Part shown: positions 10,158 to 60,186 of the stretch, piece by piece | Layout of the letters: each line of letters opens with the position of its first letter | How positions within the stretch are numbered: the first letter of the stretch is position 1 | From: Metabacillus sediminilitoris | Lineage (GTDB): Bacteria > Bacillota > Bacilli > Bacillales > Bacillaceae | Reading direction: 5' to 3' | Assembly (NCBI RefSeq): GCF_009720625.1 | Contig: NZ_CP046266.1 | Location: 2,117,501 to 2,181,500 of the forward strand | Length of the DNA stretch: 64,000 nt | Translations under genes and position numbers: made by a program | The notes under the pieces: model-generated | The model's database searches: none | Told to the model about the DNA's origin: nothing | Seen by the model: only the letters and a program-made list of their open reading frames with translations

Positions 10158-10315
10158 TTTATCCCATTCTTAACGGGCAGTAAGACTCCTGCATCAAGAT
10201 TCGAGAGAAACAAAGAAGGAAAGTGGGAGATAACTGCCCGTAAAGATCTGACGAAGGACAGGATGTTCAAAGATCATGCAAAACATAAGGACATGGCGTT
10301 TTATGCGTGATAAGT
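10158..10315 (+). repeat. Structured dispersed repeat, copy A (3' truncated)
   Basis: Starts TTTATCCCATTCTTAACGGG like the other copies and keeps the first long hairpin (ACGGGCAGT with ACTGCCCGT). It stops after GCGTGATAAGT and lacks the second hairpin and the terminal CTTTAT. It sits just upstream of the broken merR gene. Confidence 0.85.
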
Positions 10316-10693
10316 ATAGGGGGGGCTTTTTCTACGTACTTTGTTCTGAAGGAGATTTGTTATTGAAAGTACATAAAAAAAGCATTATAATTAAATTCTA
10401 AAAGTTCATGGATGTTAAGTAATGCCAAATTGCCTACTTCTATGTCTTTTTTATATGTTTAATGGTGAGATGGATAACAAGTAGGATAAACTGCTTAGAT
10501 ATTAGCCCGCCATAAAATAGTTTGTGTAAAGTCATGCACACACTATTTTATGGCGGGCTTTTAATTTTGTAAAAAGGGAGAGTTTACATTGTCTGAAATT
10601 GTGAGAGTGAAAGCCTTCCTACTATACACAATTTAATCAAGTCACTTACTTCGAAGAAAAAGACTTATCATAATTATAAGGGGGAAAAATCAA
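10316..10693. other. Intergenic region before TRIC gene
   Basis: Contains the strong hairpin at 10503-10563 and no supported gene. The transcript it terminates on the left is not evident. Confidence 0.4.
10503..10563 (+). terminator. Long hairpin terminator
   Basis: Arms of about 18 bp (AGCCCGCCATAAAATAGT and its complement) enclose a 20-base loop and are followed by TTTTAATTTT. Confidence 0.75.
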
Positions 10694-11335
10694 TTGACTT
10701 GGTCAGTTTTACACATAATCGGAATTATTGCTTATGCAGCTAGTGGGGCATTTGTTGCTATGCAGGCCAAATATTCTTTTATTGGAATCTTTGTCCTTGG
10801 ACTTACAACGTCTTATGGCGGGGCAGTGATTCGAAACTTAGTTCTCGATATCCCTATTTCTGACATATGGGATCGTCAATCCTTATTGATTGTACTTATA
10901 ACGCTAACGATCATCATATTTGTTGAGAGGAAATGGATTAATCATTGGAAACGATGGGGACATTTCTTTGACTCTATCGGTCTTGCTTCCTTTGCCATAC
11001 AAGGGGGACTATTAGCAAAAAGTCTGCAGCATGATCTAGGCATTATTGTCATTGCTTCTATGTTTACTGGTGTTGGAGGTGGAATGGTACGAGATTTGTT
11101 AGCAGGTAGAACCCCACTTGCTTTAAAGGAAGAAATCCATGCTGTACTTACAATTTTGTGTGCGATTTGCATTGGGTCTGGGTGGAACAGTCCTATTGAA
11201 TTGACGACCATAGTTGTGTTCGTTGTATTTATTCGTATGTTATCGATTCGTTATAAATGGAGATTAAAACTTCATAAATGGAAAAAACTAAAACTACCTT
11301 TCAATCGATCTGAAAAACATAATAACTCTGTATGA
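10694..11335 (+). CDS. TRIC-type cation channel family membrane protein (UPF0126)
   Basis: The protein is 213 residues with about seven hydrophobic segments and two UPF0126/TRIC repeats. The family motif GASGAF-like appears as YAASGAFVAMQAK near residue 13, and the second repeat has GVGGGMVRDLLAGRTP near residue 130. The start is TTG with GGGGGAAAAA upstream. Bacterial TRIC homologues act as potassium-permeable channels or glycine-linked transporters; physiological role here is unknown. Confidence 0.85.
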   Translation: MTWSVLHIIGIIAYAASGAFVAMQAKYSFIGIFVLGLTTSYGGAVIRNLVLDIPISDIWDRQSLLIVLITLTIIIFVERKWINHWKRWGHFFDSIGLASFAIQGGLLAKSLQHDLGIIVIASMFTGVGGGMVRDLLAGRTPLALKEEIHAVLTILCAICIGSGWNSPIELTTIVVFVVFIRMLSIRYKWRLKLHKWKKLKLPFNRSEKHNNSV

Positions 11336-11398
11336 ATGAAGGTTTCGGAAATTGCTAACGAATGATATAAAAAACATGATGATATAAGGAGAGCAAGA

Positions 11399-11770
11399 AT
11401 GACAAAGAATTTGGAACATAAATTTAGTATGCTGATCCGCGAAATAAGAAAGGAACACATTGGAAATGGACCAAGAGAAATTAATACTCGTATTGTAGGT
11501 CCATGGGTCATTTGTGAGATGAAAGGAAATTTAACGAATGTTGAAAAGTTTATGATTAAGTCAAAAGAGGGACAGATTATGGTTCATGAAGCAAGAACCG
11601 AATTAGTGAAAAATATCTATAAGGATCCTATCCCGGTGAATAAACTTGAGGAAATGATGGATGCAAAAGTTGTGAGTATTTTTACAGATATTGATATAGA
11701 AATTGATACGGCGATGACGGTTTTTGTTTTTGATAAACCTATCATGGTCAATAGTGAAAGTAAAAATTAA
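11399..11770 (+). CDS. DUF2294 domain-containing protein
   Basis: The 123-residue soluble protein matches the DUF2294 family, with the start EHKFSMLIREIRKEHIG and the central GPREINTRIVG block. Function is not established; some members are linked to bicarbonate or sodium-related genes. It follows the TRIC gene with a 63-base gap and a good ribosome binding site (AAGGAGAG), so co-transcription is possible. Confidence 0.8.
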   Translation: MTKNLEHKFSMLIREIRKEHIGNGPREINTRIVGPWVICEMKGNLTNVEKFMIKSKEGQIMVHEARTELVKNIYKDPIPVNKLEEMMDAKVVSIFTDIDIEIDTAMTVFVFDKPIMVNSESKN

Positions 11771-11865
11771 ATACATGAAACCAATCCTTGAGGATTGAAA
11801 TAAAAAGAGACCTCTTGGTATATTACGAGGTATCAGCAGCTGATCAGCCTAAGATCTCTTAATTA

Positions 11866-12293
11866 AAGTAACCAGAGTTATAACGCAGGAACATGTCAGG
11901 TTTGAAGGAGAAATACTGCATATCTATGTAAAGCAGTTTGAAGATGAAAAAATCTAACAAGCATTAAAACGATTTTATTACCAGCAGAGTAGGGCACAGT
12001 GGAGAAGAGTATCTCTTCCTATCACGTCACTTTAAAACAAATCCACGTTCAATACGGATTACGGACAGTAAAACAACATGGGAAATCTGTGATTCAAAGC
12101 AGCAATTAACATTTAATTGGAGGCTGGCAACGGCACCGCGTAAGGTCATTGACTATGTCGCCGTTCGCGAAATGTGTCACATGGTCCATCTAAATCACGA
12201 CCGCTTCTTCTGGCGCCTGGTTGGAAAAATCATGCCGGACTACAAGGAAAAAGAGAACTGGCTGTCTTTAACAATTTGGAATATGACTGTTTA
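11866..12293 (+). pseudogene. Decayed YgjP-like metallopeptidase
   Basis: In pieces of two frames the sequence matches the YgjP/DUF45 zinc metallopeptidases. An early part reads HVRFEGEILHIYVKQF, then after a stop and frameshift come HFKTNPRSIRITDSKTTW and TAPRKVIDYVAVREMCHMVH. The zinc motif HExxH is damaged: the first histidine-glutamate appears as REMCH. The C-terminus (WRLVGKIMPDYKEKE) is well preserved, so decay is recent. Confidence 0.7.
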
Positions 12294-12323
12294 GAGGCCA
12301 CCGATAACTGAATTTAGAAGTCC

Positions 12324-12357
12324 AACGTTTCTTACACAATGTAAGGAACGTTTTTTA
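12324..12357 (+). terminator. Terminator after the YgjP remnant
   Basis: Stem AACGTTTCTTACA with GTAAGGAACGTT around a four-base loop, followed by six T residues. Confidence 0.7.
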
Positions 12358-12430
12358 TTTATCAACAATATAAATCACAATTATTTATATTAAGTTTTTA
12401 ATAGATTAAAAACAGAGAAGGCTCAGACAA

Positions 12431-12539
12431 TATATCAGCGAAAATTTGGATATATCGGCGAAATTTTAGATATATCAGCGAAAATTTAGATATATCAGCG
12501 TTCGCCGAAATTTATAATATATAGGCGAACGCTGATATA
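12431..12539. repeat. 20-bp tandem repeats ending in a perfect hairpin
   Basis: About three and a half copies of a 20-bp unit (ATATATCAGCGAAAATTTAG with small changes) run from 12431 to 12500. The last unit flows into a perfect 16-bp inverted repeat, TATATCAGCGTTCGCC at 12491-12506 and its complement at 12524-12539. No coding function; this is an intergenic array between a decayed gene and the terminator of the oxidoreductase. Confidence 0.75.
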
Positions 12540-12687
12540 AAAGATTTCATTCAAAGCTAAAAAGGAAGAAAGAAACTCGTCTCCTGCTTTAATAATCTTC
12601 GGAGATTATCATAAATCACATGCTTAAAATCAAGCTGTTTTTGCATCTAGAGGGAATTAATCGGGAAGTATACAGATAACAGTAAAA

Positions 12688-12721
12688 GGAGAGCGTAACA
12701 CCTATACAGTGAGAGCTCTCC
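12688..12721 (-). terminator. Terminator of the old-yellow-enzyme gene
   Basis: A 7-bp stem (GGAGAGC/GCTCTCC) followed, on the - strand, by TTTT. It lies just downstream of the - strand gene ending at 12764. Confidence 0.6.
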
Positions 12722-12763
12722 GCATCAAAGACACTTTTTTAGATTGTAATAGATTGATTTACT

Positions 12764-14761
12764 CTACCATGTTTCCACTGCTGTTTTTTTGCCTTGGACA
12801 CCTATTTGTAAAGATGTCATGAATCCTTCAAATGTGGCTTCTTCTAATGTTCTTGGTGCTAAGCAATCACCTATTTGATAAACCTCAGAAGCTGAATGTT
12901 TAATTTTTTCGTAAAGTTCCACATTTGGGACACGTCCTTGTGATAAGACGATGGAATCCCAATTTTCTAGCGTTTCTTTCTCATATGAAAATAAGTTTCG
13001 AATAATGACTTGATTGTTTTTGATTTCACCTAAATCATAATGAGGAATCATCTTTATGTTTAGTTGATAAAGCTTCTTTAAATATTCATTTCGTACATAT
13101 TGATGAACTTCTTCTCCAATATAAAGTTTTGAAGAAATGAATGTCACATGGTGCCCTTTTTCTGCTAATTCAATGGCCGCTTCCATTCCAGGCCAATCAC
13201 CGCCAAAATCAAATACTAATACATGTTTTCCGATTGTTTTACTCCCCTGATTAAAAAGGTCATCGACTGTTATGACCCTTGGATCGTTAATTCCCGGGAT
13301 GTTTGGAATAAGCGGTCTTGAACCGATCGCACAGAATATTATGTCCGGGGAAATTTTTATAACATCTGATGGTTGAATGTTCCATCCGAGTTTGACCTTT
13401 ACATGACTAATGGATAACTTTCTTCTATAATTATCAAGCATTGTTTCGGCTAGTTCTTGTCTCATTGGTGCACGTTTTAATGTATGCAATAATCCACCGA
13501 TTTCTTCGGCCTTATCTGCTAAAATGACTTCATGTCCAAATTCATCTAACGTTAAGGCGGCTTTTAAACCAGCTGGACCTGCACCTATGACTAGCACTTT
13601 CTTTTTCTCTCTTGGACGTTCCTTAAGCACTTGCACCTGTCTTTCTTTTCCCGTTGATGGATTTTGCACACATCCGATTGCTAACCCTTTATGATAATGA
13701 CCGATACATGCTTGAAGGCAGCCGAGGCAGGCATCAATTAAATGGTGATTTCCCGATTCAGCTTTATTCGGCAGTTCTGGATCAACGATTAATGATCGAG
13801 TCATTCCCACTAAATCGGCTTTCCCGGTTGCTACAATTTGCTCTGCTTCCTGCGGGTCTACAATGCGGGATCCTACAAATACCGGTACCGCTCCAGCCAT
13901 TCGTATTTTGAACGCTTGTGGGGAAACATAGGCATGTTTCATCGGAGAAGGGGGGACAATATGCGTAGAACCTGCATATGTGCTAGAATCTCCAGCTGTG
14001 ACATTAACAAAATCCACCCTTACTTGATCCACTAAATATTCGACGATTTTAACCGCGTCTTTTACATCTGTACCATCCATTGTCATTTCATCTGCACTCA
14101 TTCGTATCCCAACTGTGAAATCCTCGCCAACCTCCTGCCATACCCGCTCCATTACTTCAACGATAAACCTCATTCGATTTTGAAAAGATCCCCCGTATTC
14201 ATCCGTACGATGATTTGTATGCTCCGACCAAAATTGGGCAGGCAGATATCCGTGTGAACAACAGATTTCAACTCCATCCAGTCCTCCAGCTTTTGCTAGT
14301 TTTGCTGAAATCGCAAAACCTTCGATGACCTCTTTAATCTCTTCCGTACTCATCGGTCTTGGCATCGTACCAAATCGTAAACTAGGAATGGCAGATGGTG
14401 CCCAAGCCGGACTGCGATAGTCACTAGAAACGACTTCTCTTCCTCCATGAAATAATTGTTGAAAAACTTTCGTGCCATATTGATGGACTTCATTCGTAAG
14501 GTCTAAATAGGCTGGGACAACATTTTGATCATATCCAGCAATTGTATGTGTCGTCAGCATACCTGATGGGTGAACCGCGGCGGCTTCTAATATAAGCAAT
14601 CCCGCTCCGCCTTTTGCCCTTTCAACGTGATAAGCTGTCATATCAGGAGTTGGAATACCATCAATGACATGATTTGTTTGGTGTGCAGTACTTAATATTC
14701 TATTTTTCAATTCAGTAAAGCCAATTGTGATTGGACTAAATAAATGCTTAAAGTGTGTCAT
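12764..14761 (-). CDS. Old-yellow-enzyme/2,4-dienoyl-CoA-reductase-like oxidoreductase
   Basis: The protein has 665 residues if started at 14761, where AGGGAG is 9 bases upstream; an ATG two codons earlier is too close to it. Residues 1-340 form an FMN-binding TIM barrel of the NADH:flavin oxidoreductase family. A cysteine cluster CLGCLQAC..C follows near residue 345-360 for a 4Fe-4S centre. The C-terminal half is an FAD/NAD(P) domain with VIGAGPAGLKAAL. This is the layout of FadH, trimethylamine dehydrogenase and N-methylproline demethylase. The sigma-54 promoter upstream and the divergent PAS activator suggest an inducible catabolic enzyme. Substrate is unresolved. Confidence 0.85.
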   Translation of the reverse strand: MTHFKHLFSPITIGFTELKNRILSTAHQTNHVIDGIPTPDMTAYHVERAKGGAGLLILEAAAVHPSGMLTTHTIAGYDQNVVPAYLDLTNEVHQYGTKVFQQLFHGGREVVSSDYRSPAWAPSAIPSLRFGTMPRPMSTEEIKEVIEGFAISAKLAKAGGLDGVEICCSHGYLPAQFWSEHTNHRTDEYGGSFQNRMRFIVEVMERVWQEVGEDFTVGIRMSADEMTMDGTDVKDAVKIVEYLVDQVRVDFVNVTAGDSSTYAGSTHIVPPSPMKHAYVSPQAFKIRMAGAVPVFVGSRIVDPQEAEQIVATGKADLVGMTRSLIVDPELPNKAESGNHHLIDACLGCLQACIGHYHKGLAIGCVQNPSTGKERQVQVLKERPREKKKVLVIGAGPAGLKAALTLDEFGHEVILADKAEEIGGLLHTLKRAPMRQELAETMLDNYRRKLSISHVKVKLGWNIQPSDVIKISPDIIFCAIGSRPLIPNIPGINDPRVITVDDLFNQGSKTIGKHVLVFDFGGDWPGMEAAIELAEKGHHVTFISSKLYIGEEVHQYVRNEYLKKLYQLNIKMIPHYDLGEIKNNQVIIRNLFSYEKETLENWDSIVLSQGRVPNVELYEKIKHSASEVYQIGDCLAPRTLEEATFEGFMTSLQIGVQGKKTAVETW

Positions 14762-14796
14762 GTACATTCACTCCCTAAAAAGGTTTATAGATTATT

Positions 14797-14814
14797 TAGC
14801 AAAAATCATGCCAA
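14797..14814 (-). promoter_or_regulatory. Sigma-54 promoter of the OYE gene
   Basis: On the - strand the sequence TTGGCATGATTTTTGCT matches the -24/-12 consensus TGGCACGN4TTGCA, with GG and GC separated by exactly ten bases. It lies about 35-50 bases before the start codon at 14761, and a sigma-54 activator gene is adjacent. Confidence 0.8.
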
Positions 14815-14918
14815 TCATTTTCAGACGTTACATTTTCAGCTGCAATTGAGTAATGTGATCTATTTTTTGAAAATTCATAATTGTTCGTTCTGATTTGTTG
14901 TACAATGAAGATAAAAAC

Positions 14919-14954
14919 GAACCTTTTTTGCATTTGGTGATGCATTAAAGGTTC
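14919..14954. promoter_or_regulatory. Candidate activator site (UAS) for the sigma-54 regulator
   Basis: An imperfect inverted repeat (GAACCTTTTTTGCAT and ATGCATTAAAGGTTC, 13 of 15 paired) sits about 105-140 bases upstream of the -24/-12 promoter, the usual distance for an enhancer site. It could alternatively be a hairpin in a leader RNA. Confidence 0.5.
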
Positions 14955-15060
14955 AAACTAATCAATCATTATGTCGGTATTGATTAGAAGCATGATCTAA
15001 GCAAGAAAATAAGCTCTTATTGATGCAAAATGTGTTCAATATTCTCTGAGGAGTGATGAC

Positions 15061-16515
15061 ATGATTGATGGAAATCAATATGAACAAAAAATCAATGCAC
15101 TTATGAATGTCAATGAATCTCTTAAAGAGCAATTAGAAGTTTCGCTCCGAAAAAATAAAGAACTTTCCCAAATACTAAATTCTTCATATGATGAAATTTT
15201 TGTTACAGATGCAGAGGGAAACGTATTATTTGTAAGTGAATCATGCAAACATTTCACAGGCTTGCCCCCAGAGGCATATATGAATAAAAACATTAGAGAG
15301 CTAGTGGAAAAAGGCATCATCGTGAACTCAGTCACATTAAAAACCATGAATACACAAACAGTCCAATCTGTTGAACAGAACTATCCAAACGGCAAAACTG
15401 TTCTAGCCACAGCTAAACCTGTTTTTGATGAAGAAGGAAGATTGTATCGAATTGTTTGTAATTCACGAGACATTTCGGAGCTCGTTGAAATGAAGAGAAA
15501 GTTAGTAGAAATCCATTCGATTCAGAAAGAAGATCCATACATCATCCAACTAACGATCGGTCAGAAAAAGTTTATCACTCAATCTCATAACATGATCTCG
15601 ACACTGCAACTAGCTGAAAAGGTTGCACCCTTGGATTCTTCGATTTTTATTCATGGAGAATCTGGTGTAGGAAAAGGAGTTTTAGCAAGGATTATTCATG
15701 AACATAGTCCGAGAAAGGACAAGACTTTTATTCAAGTGAACTGTGGTTCCATCCCCGGAACATTATTGGAATCAGAATTATTTGGTTATGAGGCTGGGGC
15801 ATTTACAGGTGCAAACAAACGTGGAAAAGCGGGTCTTGTTGAGATGGCTGAAGGAGGCACCTTGTTTTTAGATGAAATTGGAGAAATGCCATTAGACCTG
15901 CAAGTGAAAATTTTGCATTTAGTTCAAGACAAAACGTTTAAAAAAGTAGGAGGTACGTCCGAAAAGCAAATTAATATTCGGATTATTTCGGCTACGAATA
16001 AAAATTTGCTGGAAATGATCGCAGAAAAAACATTTCGCCAGGATCTATATTATCGTTTACATGTTGTCCCACTGCGTATCCCTCCATTAAGGGAGCGTAA
16101 ACAAGATATTTTAGTATTAACCGATTACTTTCTGAAACAATTTAATCAAAAGTATTCTCAGCATGTTGAATTAGATGAACATGCAAAGCTAATGATTCAA
16201 ATGCAGGAATGGCGAGGAAATGTAAGAGAATTAGAAAATTTCATTGAACAAATTGTCGTCACTGCTCAAAAACAGATTGTCAGTATTGAAGATTTGCCAT
16301 TTGCCATGGAGCATGGCATTCACAATGAAAGTCAAAAATCACTAGAGCTAATGCCATTAAAAACAGCTGTGGAAGAAACAGAAAAACAACTTCTCTCAAC
16401 TGCATTGAAAAAATATAAAACGACTAGAAAAATGGCCAAGGCACTTGGGGTGAATCAAACGACAATCATGAGAAAGCTTCATAAATATCAATTGAATCAA
16501 AATGGGACGAATTGA
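15061..16515 (+). CDS. Sigma-54-dependent activator, PAS-AAA-Fis type
   Basis: The 484-residue protein begins with a coiled coil and a PAS sensor domain (about residues 35-145). A sigma-54 AAA+ domain follows with Walker A GESGVGKG near residue 198 and the sigma-contacting loop GAFTGA near 245. A Fis-type helix-turn-helix ends the protein ([20 protein letters not shown]). GAGGAG lies before the ATG. It is divergent from the old-yellow-enzyme gene and upstream of the symporter operon; both have -24/-12 promoters, so it probably activates both in response to a small molecule. The stop codon abuts repeat copy B. Confidence 0.92.
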
Positions 16516-16727
16516 TCCCTTTCTTAACGGGCAGTAAGACGCCCACTTCAAGATTCGAGAGAAACAAAGAAGATAAGTGGGAGATAACTGCCCGTAAAGA
16601 TCCGACAAAGGACAGGATGTTCAAAGATCAGGCAAGACATAAGGACGTGGCGTTTTATGCGTGATAAGTTTCGCTAACCATCAGTGGAGGATGAAGAAAA
16701 CCCCCACTGATGGAAGTCTCACTTTAT
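16512..16727 (+). repeat. Structured dispersed repeat, copy B
   Basis: Full-length copy with first hairpin, conserved middle and second hairpin (ATCAGTGG..CCACTGAT, one mismatch in B). The left border reads TTGAT instead of TTTAT; the right end is CTTTAT. It begins at the stop codon of the sigma-54 activator gene. Confidence 0.9.
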
Positions 16728-16754
16728 TTTATAAGGAACAAAATTGTGCGGAAC

Positions 16755-16770
16755 CGGCATAGAACTTGCA
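16755..16770 (+). promoter_or_regulatory. Sigma-54 promoter of the symporter operon
   Basis: CGGCATAGAACTTGCA has the invariant GG and GC ten bases apart and TTGC at -12. It lies 40 bases upstream of the small ORF at 16810 and 28 bases after repeat copy B. Confidence 0.65.
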
Positions 16771-16809
16771 TGATATGTATTTGAAACAATTAAAAAAGGA
16801 GTGATAGAA

Positions 16810-16950
16810 ATGGGAGAATTGCTTTTTTGTTTCGGTTATGGCGGGTCGCTTATCATTCTTGGTATTGTCTCAAAAGTTTTTATTCGCAGAATGGAAAAGG
16901 ATGTTGTTTCCACTTATACCGAAATATCGAATGAAAAGGTGGAGATGTAA
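16810..16950 (+). CDS. Small membrane protein preceding the symporter
   Basis: A 46-residue ORF starts with ATG behind AAAGGAGTGAT and has one hydrophobic segment (residues about 3-23) followed by a charged tail. Its TAA directly abuts the TTG of the symporter gene. A DUF3311-type small protein precedes the second symporter at 36149, so this is probably the equivalent small partner, although too short to assign a family. Confidence 0.7.
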   Translation: MGELLFCFGYGGSLIILGIVSKVFIRRMEKDVVSTYTEISNEKVEM

Positions 16951-18555: not shown

Positions 18556-18567
18556 GGAGGGAATCAT

Positions 18568-18617
18568 AAAAATGTTGACCTTAGGATTTTCATAGGTCAA
18601 CATTTTTTTGTATTCTC
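18568..18617 (+). terminator. Terminator after symporter gene
   Basis: Arms AAAAATGTTGACCT and AGGTCAACATTTTT around a short loop, followed by T residues. Nearly the same sequence recurs at 24605-24650. Confidence 0.8.
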
Positions 18618-18787: not shown

Positions 18788-19001
18788 TTTATCCCATTCT
18801 TAACGGGCAGTAAAACTCCACTTCAAGATTCGAGAGAAACAAAGAAGATAAATGGGAGATAACTGCCCGTAAAGATCCGACGAAGGACAGGACGTCCAAG
18901 TCAGGCAAAAGCCACAGGACGTGGCGTTTTAAGCGTGATAAGTTTCGCTAACCATCAGTGGGGGATGAAGAAAACCCCCACTGATGGAAGTCTCACTTTA
19001 T
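18788..19001 (+). repeat. Structured dispersed repeat, copy C
   Basis: Full-length copy bordered by TTTAT on both sides. It has small deletions (ACTCCACTT for ACTCCCACTT) and the variant middle GACAGGACGTCCAAG. The second hairpin CCATCAGTGGGGG..CCCCCACTGATGG is perfect. Confidence 0.9.
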
Positions 19002-19441: not shown

Positions 19442-19470
19442 GATACACAAGGCAGCTATTATCCAATTCG

Positions 19471-21016: not shown

Positions 21017-21021
21017 TAATA

Positions 21022-22533: not shown

Positions 22534-22746
22534 TTTATCCCATACTTAACGGGCAGTAAGACTTCCACTTCAAGATTCGAGAGAAACAAAGAAGATAAGT
22601 GGGAGATAACTGCCCGTAAAGATCCGACGAGCGATTGACGTCCAAGTCAGGCAAGACATAAGGACGTGGCGTTTTATGCGTGATAAGTTTCGCTAACTAT
22701 CAGTGGGGGATGAAGAAAACCCCCACTGATGGAAGTCTCACTTTAT
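22534..22746 (+). repeat. Structured dispersed repeat, copy D
   Basis: Full-length, bordered by TTTAT on both sides, with the GACGAGCGATTGACGTCCAAG middle variant. Second hairpin intact except for one C to T change (AACTATCAGTGG). Confidence 0.9.
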
Positions 22747-25265: not shown

Positions 25266-25488
25266 CTTACCCCATTCTTAACGGGCAGTAGGACTCCCAC
25301 TTCAAGATTCGAGAGAAATAAAGAAGATAAATGGGAGATAAATGGGAGATAACTGCCCGTAAAGATCCGACGAGCGATTGACGTCCAAGTCAGGCGAGAC
25401 ATAAGGAAGTGGCGTATTAAGCGTGATAAGTTTCGCTAACCATCAGTGGGGATGAAGAAACCCCCTACTGATGGAAGTCTCACTTTAT
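25266..25488 (+). repeat. Structured dispersed repeat, copy E
   Basis: Full-length with an internal 12-bp duplication (GATAAATGGGAGATAAATGGGAGA) in the right arm of the first hairpin. Left border CTTAC, right border TTTAT. Second hairpin has changes on both arms. Confidence 0.9.
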
Positions 25489-36002: not shown

Positions 36003-36115
36003 GTTATCCCATATTAACGGGCAGTAATACCCCACCTCTAGGCTTGAGTTGAATGATACAAAAAAGCGAAGGTGGGGGATAAAGAAAACCACCGCTGATG
36101 GAAGTCTCGCTTTAT
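36003..36115 (+). repeat. Structured dispersed repeat, copy F (internally deleted)
   Basis: Only 113 bp remain: the left end TTATCCCATATTAACGGGCAG, a degenerate centre, and the right end CTGATGGAAGTCTCGCTTTAT. The middle of the element and parts of both hairpins are gone. Confidence 0.75.
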
Positions 36116-42000: not shown

Positions 42001-42423
42001 ATGTCACAACCAAATCAACAGTTGCTATTACCACAAGTTTCCCAGTCTGTGCTACAAGCACAACGAGCAGTAGAACAAGCAGTAGGCCACCAGCAAATGC
42101 AAGAAGCACAACAAGTTGTTCAACAAGTACAACAGCAATTACAAAGTATTCAAACTTCTAATCCTCAGGAACAGCAACAATTGCAAAAATTACAACAGGA
42201 TGTTCAAAAGGCGTACCAACAGTTACAAGTAGAAAATCAACAATTACTAAAAGCACAGCAACTGGTACAAACGGAAAACCAACAGTTACAACAAGCACAA
42301 CAACTAGTAAAACAAGCACAACAACAAGTTGAACAGGAACAAAAAGATGTTCAACTAGCACAAGAAAAATATCATCAGGCACAAGCCACTGTTATGGAAT
42401 ATCAAAATAATCATCAACAATAA
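42001..42423 (+). CDS. Glutamine-rich coiled-coil protein
   Basis: The 140-residue protein contains about 55 glutamines (near 39 percent) and no cysteine or tryptophan. Short units such as QQLQ, AQQLVQ and ENQQL recur at roughly 7-11 residue intervals, predicting an almost continuous coiled coil. There is no signal peptide or membrane segment. ATTGGAGG lies about 11 bases before the ATG. It might be a spore-associated structural or aggregation-prone protein; I do not recognise a family. Confidence 0.65.
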   Translation: MSQPNQQLLLPQVSQSVLQAQRAVEQAVGHQQMQEAQQVVQQVQQQLQSIQTSNPQEQQQLQKLQQDVQKAYQQLQVENQQLLKAQQLVQTENQQLQQAQQLVKQAQQQVEQEQKDVQLAQEKYHQAQATVMEYQNNHQQ

Positions 42424-51734: not shown

Positions 51735-52093
51735 AAAATAACCTCCTACAGTAAATATATTCCATTTTATAACAAATTTTTAAGGTGGTATATATTGTTG
51801 ATGATTATGTCGCATTTCAAATAAATTATGTAGTAGTTTATTCAAGAATTGTGCTCTTTCTATTTGTAAAGGGCCAAATAACAGAATAAGAGTTTGAGGG
51901 AATGAACATAATTTGAATTAATTTTGGTTAAGCGATCCGGGGCAGGTTAGCGGAAGATATAGAAAAGCAGTGTTGTTTTATTTCTTTATAAATGGAAAAA
52001 GCGGAATAGCTTGTTGAATGATCATTTGCAAAGTTTTTCGCTTATCAAAATTAGATTTGCTTAAATGTGTTAATTTGTGTGGAGTTTGTTGGA
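51735..52093. other. Intergenic region
   Basis: No gene. One divergent member of the short dispersed motif is seen at about 51935 (ATCCGGGGCAGGTTAGCGGA). Confidence 0.35.
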
Positions 52094-52132
52094 TTACACA
52101 AAAATTTACACGGAATTAACGTGAGATTAACA
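52094..52132 (+). promoter_or_regulatory. PhoP-box array upstream of the Tat phosphatase
   Basis: Four hexamers ATTACA, TTTACA, TTAACG and TTAACA start at 52094, 52105, 52116 and 52127, each exactly 11 bp apart. This is the arrangement of Bacillus PhoP-binding direct repeats (TTAACA-like words with 5-bp spacers). A TATTAT-like -10 lies about 15 bases on. The downstream genes (phosphatase, tatA) fit phosphate starvation control. Confidence 0.7.
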
Positions 52133-52166
52133 AATATTATGTATTATTTATGTGGAAAGGAGCTTA

Positions 52167-52186
52167 TTTGTGTAAAAATGTGTGAT
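52167..52186 (+). promoter_or_regulatory. Shared 20-bp motif, copy 1
   Basis: TTTGTGTAAAAATGTGTGAT, of which 18 of 20 bases recur at 55401-55420 in front of the deoR gene. Candidate operator for the DeoR regulator at 55465. Confidence 0.45.
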
Positions 52187-52378
52187 ATTGTGTGATTTGG
52201 TTAAATTGAATTTATGTGAATATCAAAGTGAGAAATTCAATTTAGGTTTGGTTATTTTAGATCCATTTGTAAGGCTGAATTTTATTCTTCATGGTGGTAA
52301 CAAAAAATGGAATTTTTAGCTTGGGAGAACAGGTGTGACACTGTAACTAAAATACATAAGAAAGAGGGATAAAGTACA

Positions 52379-54091: not shown

Positions 54092-54196
54092 GTATAGAAG
54101 CGATAATTTTTCGCTATTTCTAAAAAATATTCTGACAAGGGTTTATTTAGGTTAATAGATTAAAAGTTTACATTTGAACTAAGGGAGGTCAACTTT

Positions 54197-54400
54197 ATGT
54201 TACAGAATATAGGGATTCCAGGTTTAATACTCGTTCTTGTCATTGCATTAATCATTTTTGGACCATCAAAATTGCCAGAACTAGGTCGTGCAGTCGGTTC
54301 AACATTAAAGGAATTTAAAAAATCAACACGAGAACTGGTCTCAGATGATGAGCCAGATCAAGATCAATCAACAATTAAGAACGAAAAAGCAATGAAATAA
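54197..54400 (+). CDS. tatA: Twin-arginine translocase subunit TatA
   Basis: The 67-residue protein has the TatA/E membrane helix ([16 protein letters not shown]), the hinge [10 protein letters not shown] and an amphipathic helix ([11 protein letters not shown]), followed by an acidic tail. AAGGGAGGT precedes the ATG. The gene lies between the Tat-dependent phosphatase and a broken tatC, like B. subtilis phoD-tatAd-tatCd. Confidence 0.93.
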
Positions 54401-54413
54401 GATAAATCTAGTA

Positions 54414-54452
54414 GGATGTGAGTTTCTCATGTAACTTGCATCTTCTTTTTTT
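54414..54452 (+). terminator. Weak hairpin between tatA and tatC
   Basis: GATGTGAGTT pairs imperfectly with AACTTGCATC and is followed by TTCTTTTTTT. Confidence 0.45.
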
Positions 54453-54482
54453 AAAGAGGTATTTCTAATAGGAACGAATGAA

Positions 54483-55383
54483 ATGAATCTTATTGGTCAT
54501 TTAGATGAATTGCGAAAACGACTAATTATTACCTTTGGTTTCTTCATCGTTTCTTTATGTTAAAAATATCTTTGATTGGATCAATCAAGACTTCCCAATT
54601 AAGTTAGCTGTTTTAGGTCCTAGTGATAAATTATGGGTATATTTAATGTTGTCTAGTGTTGTTGCACTTACTGGAACGATGCCAATCGCAGCTTATCAAT
54701 TATGGCTATATGTCCGGCCAGCTTTACATGAAAACGAGAGGTAAGTAACTTTAGCTTACATTCCTGCATTATTTATCCCATTCTTAACGGGCAGTAAGAC
54801 TCCCACTTCAAGATTTGAGAGAAACAAAGAAGAATAGTGGGAGATAACTGCCCGTAAAGATCCGACGAGCGATTGACGTCCGAGTCAGGCGAAGGATGTG
54901 GCGTATTGTGCGTGATAAGTTTCGCTAACCATCAGTGGGGGATGAAGAAACCCCCACTGATGGAAGTCTCACTTTATATTGTTTATTTTAGGGATATGTT
55001 TCGGGTATTTTCTCATTTTCCCAATTGTCTTTAACTTCCTTCTTTCACTGTCAGATGATCTGTTTATGAACTTCTTTACGGTGGAGAAATATTTTCGTTT
55101 TTTGGTGAATATGACTCTTCCATTCGGGATACTATTTGAACTTCCAGTAGTTATTATGTTCTTGACAAGCATTGGGATTTTAAATCCATATCGCTTACAA
55201 AAAGTTAGAAAATATGCATATTTTGTCTTGATTTTAACGTCGGTGCTAATTACTCCATCGGATTTTCTATCTGATATTCTTGTTATTATCCCATTACTCT
55301 TTCTTTATGAATGTAGTGTCTTACTTTCCAAGGTCGTTTATCGTCGTAAACAGAATACTGTTGACCTAGGAGTTAATAATTAG
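54483..55383 (+). pseudogene. tatC: Disrupted tatC
   Basis: Pieces in order: LIGHLDELRKRLIITFGFF (54483-54560), a frameshift near 54560, then KLAVLGPSDKLWVYLMLSS through YVRPALHENER, an in-frame TAA at 54742-54744 where lysine is expected, then VTLAYIPALF up to repeat copy G. Coding resumes right after the repeat with LFILGICFGYFLIFPIV and runs to 55383. Removing the repeat plus one TTTAT gives ALFILFILG in frame, as in TatC. So three lesions exist: a deletion frameshift, a nonsense codon, and the inserted repeat. Unless another tatC exists, Tat export through this pair is lost. Confidence 0.9.
54772..54977 (+). repeat. Structured dispersed repeat, copy G, inserted in tatC
   Basis: Full-length, bordered by TTTAT at 54772-54776 and 54973-54977. 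The unit between is 201 bp counting one TTTAT, but it has in-frame stops. Sequence of the middle (GTCCGAGTCAGGCGAAGGATGTGGCGTATTG as a whole) is shared only with copy H. The interruption of a protein reading frame defines both ends of the element. Confidence 0.92.
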
Positions 55384-55400
55384 TATATATAAAATGTAAA

Positions 55401-55420
55401 TTTGTGCAAAAATGTGTTAT
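55401..55420 (+). promoter_or_regulatory. Shared 20-bp motif, copy 2
   Basis: TTTGTGCAAAAATGTGTTAT, directly upstream of the deoR gene; see copy at 52167-52186. Confidence 0.45.
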
Positions 55421-55464
55421 TAATAGCATATATACATATGAAAAAGTTGGTGAAATCTTTGTTA

Positions 55465-56223
55465 ATGTATGATCGTCACGAAAAAGTTATGGAGCTATTA
55501 CGTAAAAATAAATCATTAAAAGTTTCTACAGTGACAAAGATGTTTGGGGTTTCTACTGAAACTGTAAGAAGGGATTTAGAGTATTTAGAAAAGGAAGGTT
55601 ATTTGAGAAGAGTACGCGGTGGAGCTGTATTAGATGATATAAACAGCACAGAAATGAACTTTACTTTGCGAGAAACAAAGAACATAGATGAGAAAAGGGA
55701 ACTTGCTGAAATTGCAACACGTTATGTAACGGAAGGTCAATCGATTGCATTAGACGTTAGTACAACAAATACGGAGTTTGCTAAAGCTTTAAAGAAAAAA
55801 TTTCAACGTCTAACGATATTAACCAATTCTTTAGTGATTGCTAATGAACTTGCTGAAATGCCTTATTACACCATTATCTTACCGGGAGGTGTTCTGAGAA
55901 ATGAAGAATTATGCATGGTTGGGCATTTGACAGAAGATTTCTTTAAAGGTTTTAGTATTGATACCTTCTATATGAGTATAAGTGGAATATCATTAACTGA
56001 AGGATTAACAGATTATGGGCTGGGAGAATATCAAGTGAAAATGAAGATACTAGAGAGCTCTAGAAACTGTATCGTTTTAGCGGATAGCAGCAAATTTGAT
56101 GTTGCTTCTCTTTTAAAGGTTTGTCATTTTGATCGTATCGACCGGATTATTACCGATTCGAAGTTATCAAATAAGGTCCATCAAAAGTATACAAAAGAAG
56201 GTATTGAGATTGTAAATAAGTAA
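55465..56223 (+). CDS. DeoR family transcriptional regulator
   Basis: The protein is about 252 residues from the ATG at 55465; TTG at 55459 or ATG at 55438 are alternatives. The DeoR helix-turn-helix is clear (RHEKVMELLRKNKSLKV, then FGVSTETVRRDLEYLEKEG) and is followed by a DeoRC sugar-phosphate sensing domain (ILPGGVLRNEE, VLADSSKFD). Next to a HAD phosphatase and a PTS remnant, it may have controlled a sugar locus. The 20-bp motif in its leader, repeated before the phosphatase gene, is a candidate binding site. Confidence 0.88.
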   Translation: MYDRHEKVMELLRKNKSLKVSTVTKMFGVSTETVRRDLEYLEKEGYLRRVRGGAVLDDINSTEMNFTLRETKNIDEKRELAEIATRYVTEGQSIALDVSTTNTEFAKALKKKFQRLTILTNSLVIANELAEMPYYTIILPGGVLRNEELCMVGHLTEDFFKGFSIDTFYMSISGISLTEGLTDYGLGEYQVKMKILESSRNCIVLADSSKFDVASLLKVCHFDRIDRIITDSKLSNKVHQKYTKEGIEIVNK

Positions 56224-56397
56224 TAGGACTACTATTACGTTGAGAGGAAAGTAGAATTATTACATTTATATCTAATATTTACCTACCTATTATTGTGTAA
56301 TAAGTGATGAAAAGAGTAGACTATTTTTGATTTGTGGATTTGATTTCATTTGTTATTAAACTCAAGAGCCTTTCTTCAGCATTACAGTAAATAAAAC

Positions 56398-56604
56398 TTT
56401 ATCCCATTCTTAACGGGTAGTAAGACTCCCACTTCAAGATTTGAGAGAAACAAAGAAGATAAGTGGGAGATAACTGCCCGTCAAGATCCGACGAGCGATT
56501 GACGTCCGAGTCAGGCGAAGGATGTGGCGTATTGTGCGTGATAAGTTTCGCTAACCATCAGTGGGGGATGAAGAAAACCCCCACTGATGGAAGTCTCACT
56601 TTAT
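56398..56604 (+). repeat. Structured dispersed repeat, copy H
   Basis: Full-length, bordered by TTTAT on both sides. It shares the GTCCGAGTCAGGCGAAGG middle with copy G, 1.6 kb away, suggesting that the two are recent relatives. Confidence 0.92.
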
Positions 56605-56691
56605 TTTATTTGTAATGTTCAATCACAATTGTCTAATACTGATGAACTCTCATATTTCGAGAAAGCTAATGTAAATGGAGGAGAGGTTTTG

Positions 56692-57414
56692 ATGATAAAG
56701 GGTATTCTATTTGATAAAGATGGTACTTTATTACAATTTGGGACTATATGGATTAAAGTGGTGGAAGAGATCATCGATGATTTACTGAAGATGATAGGAA
56801 AGACAGGTAATAGAGATCTTCAAAAACAGTTATGTCTTTCAATTGGGTTAAGAAATGGAGAAGTTGACGAGAAAGGTCATTTAGCAAGTGGTACTACCTT
56901 GGATATTGCCAATGCTTTTCAAGCAGTTCTACCAAAGCAAGTACCATTATTGCACCAATGGGTATCAGAGAATATCTTAAAAAAAACGAAACAATTGATT
57001 GAGTATGTAAAACCTGTTTGTAACTTATCATCTCTCTTTTCAGCAATTAAGCAAAAAGGAGTTATAATAGGAATTGCCACGGCTGATGACTATGAAACTA
57101 CTGTTCTATGTTTACACCATTTAGGAATCAAAAACGAAATTCAATTTCTAGGAACAGCTGATCTTTACGAGAAGAAGCCTGGTACTCAAGTAGTGGAGAA
57201 GTTTTGTGAACAATTTGGCTTAGAAAAAGAAGAAGTTGCTGTAGTCGGAGATACCGTGGTTGATTTAAAAACAGCCCAAAACAGTAAGGTAAGATACGGA
57301 ATAGGTGTACTCTCAGGAGTTGGTTCTAAACAAGAGCTGCAAAGCCTAGCAGATTTTGTTATCCCGAATGTTGAGCACCTAATTAATAGTAATAACGAGT
57401 TCATTTGGGAATAA
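56692..57414 (+). CDS. HAD family hydrolase
   Basis: The 240-residue protein starts with the HAD nucleophile motif FDKDGTL (residues 6-12), has motif II around GIATADDYE and motif IV in VGDTVVDLKTA. The ATG at 56692 follows GGAGGAGAGG; the open frame upstream runs into repeat H and is not used. A helical cap follows motif I, so it is likely a phosphoglycolate-phosphatase-like enzyme acting on a sugar phosphate, consistent with the DeoR neighbour. Confidence 0.85.
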   Translation: MIKGILFDKDGTLLQFGTIWIKVVEEIIDDLLKMIGKTGNRDLQKQLCLSIGLRNGEVDEKGHLASGTTLDIANAFQAVLPKQVPLLHQWVSENILKKTKQLIEYVKPVCNLSSLFSAIKQKGVIIGIATADDYETTVLCLHHLGIKNEIQFLGTADLYEKKPGTQVVEKFCEQFGLEKEEVAVVGDTVVDLKTAQNSKVRYGIGVLSGVGSKQELQSLADFVIPNVEHLINSNNEFIWE

Positions 57415-57481
57415 AGTAAGATTTAGTAGAAATACTTATTTAAAAAAGTTTCTTACAAATTTTAAGGAACATTAGCCTTGG

Positions 57482-57643
57482 TGGATTGCGGTCTTGTTAG
57501 GTGTGTTATATGCTTTTGCATATTACTTTATTTTCCGCTTTATGATCAAAAAGTTTAATCTAATGACACCAGGAAGAGAAAAAGAGGAAACTGAAGAGAA
57601 ACAAGGTTCAAAAGCTAATAGCGATCTTGCTTCGATATCCTAG
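57482..57643 (+). pseudogene. C-terminal remnant of a PTS EIIC sugar permease
   Basis: The frame ([18 protein letters not shown], then [17 protein letters not shown]) matches the end of the EIIC domain in glucose/N-acetylglucosamine-type PTS permeases, where GR followed by charged residues marks the linker. Everything before it is missing. Confidence 0.65.
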
Positions 57644-57649
57644 AAGCTA

Positions 57650-57826
57650 TGGTGGGGCTATGGAGCAGGGATGGTAGAGTTATATAATCATCAATACTTC
57701 TGTAACAATCGTTCTTATCAAAAAGTATATGATGCGTTTGTAGATATTTGGGGAACAGAGAAATTATGGACTAGTATTGACAGATGTAATTTAAGCTTCC
57801 CAAATAAACCTGGCCATGAATCATAA
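57650..57826 (+). pseudogene. Fragment resembling a phytanoyl-CoA dioxygenase
   Basis: About 55 codons read GMVELYNHQYFCNNRS and FVDIWGTEKLWTSIDRCNL before a TAA, a block seen in phytanoyl-CoA dioxygenase family proteins. No start or further domain is present. Confidence 0.45.
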
Positions 57827-58290
57827 TTTGATTTCACCTACAATATTAAAGTAAAAGATCTATGTTTCGACTCGTTCTGACGATTTATCACAAAAATTAA
57901 CTATACATTAATGAAATATTAATAATTTAAAGATACTGAAACAAAAGAAATAATTACATATGGGTCATTTTACATATTTTATCAATATTTGTAAATGAGT
58001 TTAACAAGTGAAATGTTCATTGAAAAATCCAATTATATAAAACTTCCTTCTTATTAATCGGGCATTCTGAGGGATAATCGATAGATATCAGCGAGACGTG
58101 AAATAATAGAAAAGACTCATGTCACTTTGATAGATGGAAAGTAAATCTAGATTCTATTGAACTATGTTTTGAAAAACACAGGACAAATCTGCTATTTTTT
58201 CGATGTTTACTGTTATTTTACGACAATACTAAAGTTTCTTAATAACCATTCCCTAAGATAAAAATAGACATTACGGAGGGAGTGTTAAAA
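57827..58290. other. Upstream region of phoD
   Basis: Non-coding, AT-rich. It contains the PhoP-box-like repeat at 58206-58222 and the site GGAGGG for phoD. Confidence 0.5.
58206..58222 (+). promoter_or_regulatory. Candidate PhoP box before phoD
   Basis: TTTACT and TTTACG are 11 bp apart (5-bp spacer), the pattern of PhoP direct repeats; only two convincing units are present. Confidence 0.45.
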
Positions 58291-59916
58291 ATGAAAAAAA
58301 TTGATCTTCAATCAGAAATGCTAGACCGTAGAAATTTCTTAAAAAAGACAGGTAAAGGAGTGGGTATTGCGCTAGGAGCAGCGCTTGTTCCTTCATTGCA
58401 AATGAATATTGCAGCGGCGGAATCTACATCCAATAATTCTAGCAATATCGCTTATCCTTTTACACTAGGAATTGCTTCAGGTGACCCGCTGCCAGATGGG
58501 GTTGTTTTGTGGACAAGACTTGCTCCAGATCCATTGAATGGAGGGGGAATGCCGAACCATCCATTTCCTGTACAATGGGAGGTTTCACTTGATTCCAATT
58601 TTATAAATGTCGTTAAAAGGGGAACTGAACTCTCAAAACCTCAACTGGGGCATTCTGTCCATGTTGAAGTTGATGGCTTGGAACCTGCTACATGGTATTA
58701 TTACCGTTTTAAGTCCCAATCTGATTTTAGCCCAGTAGGCAGAACGAAGACAGCACCTGCCTATAATAGTCCGGTAGACAAGCTAAACTTCGCATTTGCT
58801 TCTTGCCAAAACTGGCCAGTTGGTTTTTACACAGCATATCAACATATGGCTAAGGATGACCTGGATTTTGTTGTCCATTTAGGAGACTATATTTATGAAG
58901 GAAAGCATAGCTCAAAAATTCGACCAAACGATCAGGTTTACCAAGAAATCTATACGATTGATGACTATCGTAATCGTTATGCCTTATATAAGTTAGACAG
59001 TGACCTTCAAGCTGCACATGCCAATTTCCCATGGATTGTTACATTTGATGACCATGAAGTGGATAATAACTATGCTGGAGAAGTTCCGCAAGATCCGGAT
59101 AAGCAATCTACAGAAGATTTCATGAAACGGAGAGCTTTGGCTTACCAAGCCTATTATGAACATATGCCGCTTCGTCGTACATCTGTGCCAAATGGAAGCG
59201 ACATACAAATATATCGTCGTCTATCCTTTGGAAATTTATTGGAAGTCAATGTACTAGACACACGCCAGTACAGGGATGATCAAGCAAATGGAGACGGCTG
59301 GAAAGTTCCAACACCTGAATCAGAGGATCCAACTCGAACTCTTCTAGGTGAACAACAAGAGAGTTGGTTATTAGAGGGACTAGCTGCATCACAATCGAAA
59401 TGGAAGGTACTTGCTCAACAAGTCTTTTTCGCCCACCGTGATGGTGATTTTGATCCTGGCGAAGAATATGTAAGTATGGATAGCTGGGATGGATATCCTG
59501 CTGCACGCCAACGAATTGTTGACTTTTTAGCTGAAAAGGATATTAATAATACCGTTGTCCTCACTGGGGATGTTCATACCAACTGGGCAAATGAAATCAA
59601 AGTGGACTTCCATGATCCAAATTCAGAAAATGTAGCGGTAGAGTTTGTTGGAACATCGATTACTTCCAATGGAGACGGGTCTGATGTTAATAGCAACACA
59701 GCACAATACTTAAAAGAAAATCCGCATATTAAATTCTTTAATAACTATCGCGGCTACGTACGCTGTAAACTGACACAACAAACATGGCAAACGGATTATC
59801 AAGTAGTTCGGTATGTATCAAGACCGGGAGCCCCAATTGAAACCCGAGCATCTTTCATTGTTGAAGATGGAAAATCAAGTTTGCAGCAAGTAAAGACTGA
59901 AGCAGTTCCAGTTTAA
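58291..59916 (+). CDS. phoD: Alkaline phosphatase D (PhoD), Tat substrate
   Basis: The protein has 541 residues. The Tat signal is DRRNFLKKTGKGVGIALGAA near residues 12-31. An N-terminal PhoD_N domain (from about residue 50, TLGIASGDPLPDGVVLWTRL) precedes the metallophosphatase domain with HLGDYIYEG, DDHEVDNNYAG and VLTGDVHTNW. It is a secreted phosphodiesterase/phosphatase of the Pho regulon that needs Tat export. GGAGGG is 10 bases before the ATG at 58291. Confidence 0.93.
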   Translation: MKKIDLQSEMLDRRNFLKKTGKGVGIALGAALVPSLQMNIAAAESTSNNSSNIAYPFTLGIASGDPLPDGVVLWTRLAPDPLNGGGMPNHPFPVQWEVSLDSNFINVVKRGTELSKPQLGHSVHVEVDGLEPATWYYYRFKSQSDFSPVGRTKTAPAYNSPVDKLNFAFASCQNWPVGFYTAYQHMAKDDLDFVVHLGDYIYEGKHSSKIRPNDQVYQEIYTIDDYRNRYALYKLDSDLQAAHANFPWIVTFDDHEVDNNYAGEVPQDPDKQSTEDFMKRRALAYQAYYEHMPLRRTSVPNGSDIQIYRRLSFGNLLEVNVLDTRQYRDDQANGDGWKVPTPESEDPTRTLLGEQQESWLLEGLAASQSKWKVLAQQVFFAHRDGDFDPGEEYVSMDSWDGYPAARQRIVDFLAEKDINNTVVLTGDVHTNWANEIKVDFHDPNSENVAVEFVGTSITSNGDGSDVNSNTAQYLKENPHIKFFNNYRGYVRCKLTQQTWQTDYQVVRYVSRPGAPIETRASFIVEDGKSSLQQVKTEAVPV

Positions 59917-59972
59917 ACATTGATCAAACAAATATACATTTGAATACTAGTTCTCTTATTTTTTTATATATT

Positions 59973-60186
59973 TTTATCCTATACTTAACGGGCAGTAAGA
60001 CTCCTACTTCAAGATTCGAGAGGAACAAGGAAGATAAGTGGGAGATAACTGCCCGTAAAGATCAAGACGAACGATTGACGTCCAAGTCAGGCGAGACATA
60101 AGGAAGTGGCATACTAAGCGTGATAAGTTTCGCTAACCATCAGTGGGGGATGAAGAAAACCCCCACTGATGGAAGTCTCACTTTAT
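59973..60186 (+). repeat. Structured dispersed repeat, copy I
   Basis: Full-length, TTTAT on both sides, with AAGATCAAGACGAACG in the middle and CCTACTT in the first hairpin (a G-U compatible change). Confidence 0.92.

Follow-up and report, generated by a model that had tools for sequence, protein, structure and literature searches.

The nine repeats in the window, by which we mean the whole 64-kb stretch of DNA that was analysed, belong to a mobile DNA element. The element is marked by an insertion in tatC, by a TTTAT pentamer of which head-to-tail copies have one in common, and by an orientation linked to the replication fork. How does so small an element, one without a gene, move? It is probably a non-autonomous element transferred as single-stranded DNA, in the manner of the palindrome-associated derivatives (PATEs) of the IS200/IS605 insertion sequences, with an HUH-type enzyme acting in trans as the most likely agent.

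Structure and distribution of the repeat

The sequence-only reading had placed nine repeats on the + strand of the window, and all nine were recovered by DNA search and by models of the left end (R1) and the right end (R2). The starts that it gave are right as positions, but each is the first base of a TTTAT-like target, and the element proper begins 5 bases later (Table 1). Likewise, the features it held to be common to all nine are found in the seven full-length copies (B, C, D, E, G, H and I), but A has lost hairpin 2 with the right end, and F is a deletion form. R1 matched the eight copies other than F at E-values of 6.6e-24 to 1.2e-28 (116.1 bits at A), and R2 matched the seven full-length copies at 8.5e-22 or better and F at 3.9e-8, with no match at A; these values are partly so by construction, because the models were built from copies in the same genome, those of the window included.

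Table 1. Positions in the window of the repeat copies and of the two parts of the interrupted tatC gene
Feature	Position	Strand	Remarks
Copy A	10158..10315	+	TTTAT target 10158-10162; has left hairpin and middle segment; right limit approximate, set by eye
Copy B	16512..16727	+	TTGAT target; long form, 211 nt without target; right end TTTAT
Copy C	18788..19001	+	TTTAT target; long form, 209 nt
Copy D	22534..22746	+	TTTAT target; long form, 208 nt
Copy E	25266..25488	+	CTTAC target; long form, 218 nt; 11-nt internal duplication in hairpin 1
Copy F	36003..36115	+	GTTAT target 36003-36007; element 36008-36115, 108 nt; right end kept
tatC, first-part remnant	54535..54744	+	69-aa ORF; aligned at DNA level with intact homologues (L411-L415)
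Copy G	54772..54977	+	TTTAT target; long form, 201 nt; interrupts tatC
tatC, second part	54979..55383	+	PF00902, profile 105-208 of 208, E 1.7e-29
Copy H	56398..56604	+	TTTAT target; long form, 202 nt
Copy I	59973..60186	+	TTTAT target; long form, 209 nt

A hairpin stands at each end of the element, left and right, with a middle segment between them in some forms. Copy G folded as single-stranded DNA gave a z-score of -7.9, and a Sporosarcina relative folded as RNA gave -7.5. The covariation expected of real stems is present: both end hairpins covary across genera, above all 500 shuffles on every measure, in alignments that were fitted to the models and are thus biased towards them.

The further copies that the sequence-only reading would expect were found in quantity, both in the rest of the genome and in relatives. 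A plain DNA search of the genome (G000) with copy G found 51 places at E-values up to 0.001, copy H at 1.1e-96, and the genome holds about 70 right ends, most of them belonging to forms about 152 or 208 nt long. The ends were found under 19 genus names, with relatives of the element in many Bacillales bacteria, and in a class-level survey the element was present in 20 of 106 genera. A search of phages gave no match, and exact patterns in viral sequence found two stretches for the right end and none for the left. Loci L125, L132, L138, L153, L159, L179 and L187 were considered as new variants and rejected; they hold short forms of about 49 nt, which may well be deletion products. A strict pattern found at least four such forms in at least three of 16 genomes, at most two per genome, and these counts are lower bounds because the pattern missed the known forms in L132, L153, L179 and L187.

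Might the repeat simply be a domesticated, immobile sequence that is retained because it serves the cell, for instance in RNA stability or in organising the chromosome? Its strong structure, its tens of copies, mostly outside ORFs, and the want of a candidate enzyme would suit such a role. Against this stand the insertion of copy G in tatC, at a site that is intact in five stretches, from four relatives, matched by homology rather than by proven orthology, a copy number that ranges from 0 to 71 within one genus, and copies in the genome that are alike up to 97%. We regard a purely domesticated repeat as most improbable.

Insertion sites and tandem junctions

Most copies lie directly 3' of TTTAT. 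At tandem junctions, where a right end lies at most 6 nt from the next left end, one common pentamer in exact register joins the units in 18 of 20 cases in the genome and in 6/6 among the named-genus loci; in G012, seven right ends are spaced at a 152-nt period.

Is the pentamer a target duplication? Thirty single copies in the genome have both ends paired, and 21 of them have TTTAT on both sides. In six the left pentamer deviates and the right TTTAT is kept, the reverse is seen in none, and in three both pentamers deviate. The left-right asymmetry is small (6 versus 0). An early impression that the right TTTAT is invariant (23/23) was dropped when a larger set gave 52/71, and the asymmetry is confined to the paired test: when all ends in the genome are counted, those of arrays and decayed copies too, TTTAT has about the same frequency at the left (32/49, after a motif filter removed 31 of 80 rows) as at the right (52/71). 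The six-to-none asymmetry favours insertion without target duplication, whereas one single copy has TTTAC at both ends, as a duplication would give; and since TTTAT is also the right end of the element, a duplication is hard to tell.

These sites bear on a second explanation, that the repeat derives, as a MITE, from a double-strand (DDE) transposon whose insertion duplicates a 5-bp TTTAT target, the orientation bias coming from replisome contacts. The 21 copies flanked by TTTAT and the one flanked by TTTAC are what it predicts; replication-linked orientation is described for other IS families too, via the beta-clamp in the account of PMC5371812; and the look-alike repeat bcr1 has been termed MITE-like in the descriptions at hand (PMC3446304, PMC3733652). 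The two ends, however, are different subterminal hairpins, and terminal inverted repeats are absent. The right TTTAT is kept in six of the nine single copies with a deviating pentamer, and head-to-tail copies have one pentamer in common. We think a DDE origin unlikely.

The integrase of integrons is a recombinase that acts on folded single-stranded attC sites. By analogy, a circle might be recombined site-specifically at a TTTAT crossover by a tyrosine recombinase acting on folded single strands, and this would account for the same pentamer at both junctions, the exact tandem units and the folded ends. Among the paired ends of 80 named-genus loci, inspected by eye with 27 pairs listed, no gene-bearing, autonomous element was seen, which is a weak test of this explanation; we give it a low probability. 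In L176 a left end is separated by 3.5 kb from a right end, and because the genes between them look ordinary, these ends are read as separate remnants.

Orientation and the search for an enzyme

GC skew and coding bias place the terminus of the genome at 2.82-2.94 Mb and the origin at the ends of the contig. The element strand is on the lagging-strand template at 46 of 57 loci (p 3e-6), so that the single orientation seen in the window does not extend to the whole genome, where 11/57 loci point against the fork. Two weaker places from the DNA search with copy G, 221087 (-) and 2528720 (+), were left out of the 57; the first or the second would add to the bias, and the other would run against it. 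Gene direction was rejected as the source of the bias: where the flanking genes are convergent, divergent or directed against the fork, 23 of 28 loci still follow the fork (p 0.0009). The replication-linked orientation that had been suspected from the window alone is thus upheld, and it recurs in two further genomes, G216 (15/17 loci, 3 ambiguous) and G012 (19/25, 1 ambiguous); in Terrilactibacillus, with 10/17 loci following the fork, the bias is not significant. According to PMC5371812, as far as its account goes, IS608 and ISDra2 of the IS200/IS605 family obey the same lagging-template rule with the same sign. The particular IS605 elements studied in PMC7290912, by contrast, are reported to have no strand preference.

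That the repeat is a structured RNA or single-stranded DNA element spreading non-autonomously is supported by its many copies, by covariation and by the empty sites for copy G. The choice between the two is formally undecided, and single-stranded DNA is favoured because of the target, the tandem junctions and the sign of the fork bias. How, then, would such transfer proceed? We infer a single-strand intermediate, exact cut points and an enzyme class as follows. A trans-acting enzyme, most likely one of the single-strand HUH enzymes, would recognise the element by its folded ends; the left cut would fall 3' of TTTAT, and the right cut 3' of the element's own CTTTAT. The freed strand would then insert 3' of a TTTAT that a replication fork has left exposed on its lagging-strand template.

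One would think that the Y1 transposase (PF01797) of such a system might be found near the element. No Y1 match was found in G000, G004, G015 or G028; the first three hold 68, 69 and 71 right ends, the fourth 17 left ends, and the three most copy-rich genomes of the genus are among those without a match. In the class, 21 of 28 element-bearing genomes have Y1 and seven have none. At 90 Y1 loci, part of all the Y1 genes listed, with about 1.5 kb on each side, none had the element ends as its own, and no full IS combining matching ends with a Y1 TnpA was found. Thirty of these loci were searched with R2 with filters off and with blastn (best R2 match 17.9 bits, E 0.048, L059), a second thirty with R2 alone (best 12.7 bits), and the last thirty with R1 and R2. 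At one Y1 locus, L448, element copies adjoin an IS whose boundaries differ from theirs. No candidate for the enzyme emerged from these searches, and their outcome speaks against the proposed reading.

Relation to known repeats and to the Bacillaceae-1 RNA

The hairpin near each end, the insertion 3' of a fixed short motif and the ends-only make-up recall the PATEs, which are thought to be mobilised in trans in the account of PMC7290912, and the lagging-template orientation is that of IS200/IS605 as PMC5371812 describes it. Unlike the PATEs, the repeat has no IS with matching ends at the 90 Y1 loci, and its copies far outnumber the single PATE described in PMC7290912. REP/REPIN sequences are likewise short, dispersed, structured DNA, thought to be moved by a Y1 enzyme in trans, the RAYT or TnpAREP, as PMC8266576 presents them; the present units, in contrast, exceed them in length, have two dissimilar hairpins and go with a fixed TTTAT. 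A RAYT gene flanked by copies was not found, there being no Y1 in the genome and no copies around 30 Y1 loci of the genus, and RAYT-like genes (so labelled from size and score) are present in the element-free genomes G002, G006 and G008.

There is also a likeness to bcr1, of the group A B. cereus repeats bcr1-bcr3. The published descriptions, so far as they extend, give bcr1 as a stem-loop of 147 or 167 nt in B. anthracis, TTTAT-linked and MITE-like, with tens of copies per strain, mostly chromosomal (PMC2267715, PMC6542083, PMC8725734, PMC3446304). The short form of about 152 nt, the number of right ends in G000 and the TTTAT agree with this, a likeness by published description and not by sequence, while the window copies are mostly of the longer form. 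Among the matches listed in plasmid searches, none came from the B. cereus group. Also unlike bcr1, which PMC6542083 reports as limited to the B. cereus group, the present family spans many genera and has long and modular forms.

Is the repeat instead an RNA? A structured RNA that spreads through reverse transcription, much as a bacterial SINE would, could draw on the strong conserved folding, on the 40-51% of B. cereus repeat copies that PMC3446304, in the portion relevant here, places in transcripts, and on the Bacillaceae-1 RNA motifs (RF01690) nested in relatives: in 23 element-bearing loci of relatives, 12/12 RF01690 matches lie inside elements. These nested modules occur in either orientation, however, so that the strand of the element and that of the RNA do not consistently coincide. 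An unsystematic look noticed no A tail and no 5'-truncated series, tandem arrays with one common target are not expected of this route, and Rfam gave nothing in the window at gathering score, its two sub-threshold matches being weak (E up to 0.5) and away from the repeats. Spread through RNA is very unlikely.

RF01690 had no match in the window copies. That the Bacillaceae-1 RNA is simply part of the element was rejected as well: among 30 loci fetched for RF01690, a single one (L418) has its match within an element detected by R1 and R2. It is nested in some relatives' copies, yet is a separate module. By eye, several other RF01690 loci adjoin rRNA or tRNA genes.

What might the family as a whole represent? 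Our broadest proposal is a speculative one: that this family, to which bcr1 would belong, is one of the small mobile elements most widespread in Bacillales, that it is moved as single-stranded DNA at forks by an enzyme not recognisable as a Y1, and that it carries structured modules such as the Bacillaceae-1 RNA, taken up in either orientation and even within the right hairpin of the element. Repeats that look like one reported from the B. cereus group alone are present across Bacillales. The single-strand mechanism is testable and its enzyme is an orphan, for which copy-rich genomes without detectable Y1 narrow the search. Given the nested motifs, part of an Rfam 'sRNA' family is passenger DNA of a mobile element, and this matters for annotation.

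Architecture and distribution of the element

The nine repeats in the window, which spans 2,117,501-2,181,500 of a 5.60-Mb single-contig genome, are a real element. All nine copies proposed by the sequence-only reading proved genuine and correctly placed when the sequence was re-examined and matched to covariance models of the left end (R1, built from 28 copies) and the right end (R2, built from 24 sequences). From the 5' side, a TTTAT-like pentamer is followed by CCC or a variant, by hairpin 1 of about 75 nt with arms ACGGGCAGT/ACTGCCCGT, and by AAAGATC. Where a window copy is full-length, some 55 nt of middle segment come next, then hairpin 2, with arms CCATCAGTGGGGG/CCCCCACTGATGG, and the element terminus AAGTCTCACTTTAT. 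Copy A is missing its right end, and copy F is a deletion form that retains little of hairpin 1 or of the middle segment. Elsewhere in the window, a weak BsrG-like Rfam match (25 bits against a gathering score of 55) lies ahead of copy A at 9380-9623, and an ORF at 42001-42423 contains degenerate CAA/CAG-rich repeats (42085-42357) with 63- and 21-base spacing.

Among matches in named genera, standard pairs are kept at 88.9% in the right-end structure and 91.4% in the left, and two-sided changes occur in 12 of 16 right-end and 11 of 12 left-end pairs. The stem covariation that the earlier reading had singled out as a check is present, as both ends exceed all 500 shuffles on every measure, in alignments that are fitted to R1 and R2 and hence tilted in the models' favour, and against shuffles that related sequences can exceed without structure. 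In R2 helix 1, four bases ahead of hairpin 2 pair with ACTT of the terminal CACTTTAT, with 74% of cells paired. Pairing between a guide and the cleavage site is known for IS608, and helix 1 could be a candidate, if a weak one, for an IS608-like pairing of this kind.

Further copies had been expected in the genome and its relatives, and they are there: 70 right ends in the genome itself (R2, E <=0.01), and R2 matches in 16 of the 21 genomes of the genus, where copy number ranges from 0 to 71. Under stricter filters, which make the counts lower bounds, R1 matches at least 24 of 80 genomes of the family, and R2 at least 28 of 250 genomes and at least 20 of 106 genera of the class. A left-end pattern scan of named genomes returned at least 120 stretches, with 19 genus names among 80 of them; the matches listed include Sporosarcina, Lysinibacillus, Psychrobacillus, Rummeliibacillus, Terrilactibacillus, Priestia, Cytobacillus, Planococcus, Niallia, Heyndrickxia and Peribacillus, and 27 listed pairs of ends measure 127 to 346 nt with the target. 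The element is rare on plasmids, at 6 of 72,556 records in the fullest search (E up to 1). A Klebsiella grimontii plasmid (CP079755.1, locus L240, ~2970-3064) carries a shortened copy with TTTAT at both ends, and on this gammaproteobacterial plasmid the copy stands shortly before a CPBP-family gene. The phage collection yielded no match to the element; a short form on a viral contig (L303, ~10050-10105) was spotted by eye. Short forms of about 49 nt recur at loci in several genera (L125, L132, L138, L153, L159, L179, L187 and L476-L479), in which the opening ~29 nt of the left end run straight into the closing ~20 nt of the right end, often at a common CCCAC.

Insertion, target and the mobilising enzyme

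The element has probably been mobile recently, and is probably non-autonomous. Copy G interrupts tatC: ahead of it stands a 69-aa remnant, and behind it the TatC domain resumes with its second half. The gene is damaged beyond the insertion itself, because the upstream remnant ends before the insertion point. In the empty-site comparison, made for copy G alone, four relatives supply five homologous stretches that have no interruption at this place (G015 two; G001, G013 and G011 one apiece). Where tandem junctions were sought within 6 nt, neighbouring units have a single pentamer in common in exact register at 18 of 20 junctions in the genome and at 6 of 6 in named genera. The longest arrays run to seven right ends in the compared genome G012, where the period is 152 nt, and to six in the M. 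sediminilitoris genome.

Head-to-tail arrays and nested Bacillaceae-1 motifs (G, genome, G000 being that of M. sediminilitoris; C, contig; L, locus)
Feature	Place	Positions
Head-to-tail array, 5-7 units	G012:C1	867859-868834
Head-to-tail array, 5-7 units	G000:C1	4409246-4409984
Head-to-tail array, 5-7 units	G000:C1	4164656-4165372
Head-to-tail array, 5-7 units	G001:C65	178409-179098
Nested Bacillaceae-1 motif	L142	379-443
Nested Bacillaceae-1 motif	L190	3145-3211
Nested Bacillaceae-1 motif	L167	1571-1637

Is the pentamer a target, or part of the element? Thirty single copies of the genome have both ends paired. TTTAT flanks 21 of them on either side; in 6 the left pentamer alone departs from it, in none the right alone, and in 3 both do, one of these with TTTAC on both sides. 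Over all ends of the genome, arrays and decayed copies included, TTTAT stands at 32 of 49 left ends (31 of 80 rows having been removed by a motif filter) and 52 of 71 right ends; in named genera it stands at 75 of 82 left ends, where the scan pattern itself required TTAT, and at 70 of 80 right ends. The paired-copy counts, set against those for all ends, thus favour, and do not prove, a right TTTAT carried by the element itself.

What enzyme moves the element? The search covered the Y1 transposase family (PF01797). By PF01797 there is no Y1 gene in the genome, in G004, G015 or G018, or in G028, the sole left-end-bearing genome among 44 searched of its genus. In the class sample, Y1 occurs in 21 of 28 element genomes versus 109 of 222 others. 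Ninety Y1 loci were examined (30 of 41 genus matches, 30 from a longer class list, by R2 only, and 30 of 44 from a further listing), and elements lie close by at one, L448. There, at 1277-2066 in Rummeliibacillus suwonensis, an IS200-type element directly adjoins a decayed copy of the repeat; the boundaries of this IS, judged against locus L458, differ from the element ends. A Y1 enzyme acting in trans is possible yet unsupported, because some element genomes are Y1-free and no IS at the 90 loci has the element ends as its own.

Orientation and replication

Sampled in 20 stretches of 20 kb, GC skew and coding strand flip at the contig ends and again within 2.82-2.94 Mb. The supposition that orientation is linked to replication holds in this genome, where with arrays collapsed the element strand is the lagging-strand template at 46 of 57 loci (p 3e-6), a count that omits two weaker matches, 221087 (-) and 2528720 (+), one of which would fit and one not. 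It holds also in G216, from another family of the same order (15 of 17 with the fork and 3 ambiguous, from 21 scored copies), and in G012 (19 of 25, 1 ambiguous); in Terrilactibacillus sp. S3-3 the bias, 10 of 17, is not significant. Genes could account for such a bias, since 72% to 100% of ORF length is on the leading strand in the samples. With flanking genes called as simple ORFs of >=80 aa, however, the fork is followed at 23 of 28 loci where these are convergent, divergent or both directed against it, among them 6 of the 7 where both neighbours point against the fork, which rules out gene direction as the source. The sign of the orientation is that of the published IS200/IS605 rule (PMC5371812), as expected of an element moved as single-stranded DNA; replication-linked bias is also known in other IS families (PMC5371812), and one IS605 study found no orientation bias (PMC7290912).

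A nested RNA motif and the relation to bcr1

In an Rfam scan of 23 element-bearing loci, picked for the element and not the motif, each of the 12 matches to Bacillaceae-1 RNA (RF01690) falls within an element. Five of them, every one from Terrilactibacillus, share the element's strand, and one of these five falls within the right-hairpin match of L142; the other 7 are on the opposite strand. Is the motif defined by the element? Among loci selected by RF01690, only 1 of 30 motifs lies inside an element (R1 and R2) and most lie elsewhere, which contradicts that reading; the motif is therefore carried by the element, not defined by it. By eye, several RF01690-selected motifs adjoin rRNA or tRNA genes, and one in the M. 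sediminilitoris genome (L426, G000:C1:611063-611128) sits in an apparent 16S-23S spacer of an rRNA operon.

The Bacillus cereus group repeat bcr1 is described as a structured, TTTAT-linked, MITE-like repeat of about 150 nt in tens of copies (PMC6542083, PMC2267715, PMC3446304, PMC8725734). The element's short form matches bcr1 in a comparison by description only. The two sequences may look alike as well, which we take as a lead only. Titles, abstract openings and some passages of non-subscription papers name no enzyme for bcr1 and no bcr1 outside the B. cereus group, and the breadth beyond that group is likely, though not proven, to be new. The element is of a known general kind; its breadth and its modular forms are new, and its mobiliser is an orphan.
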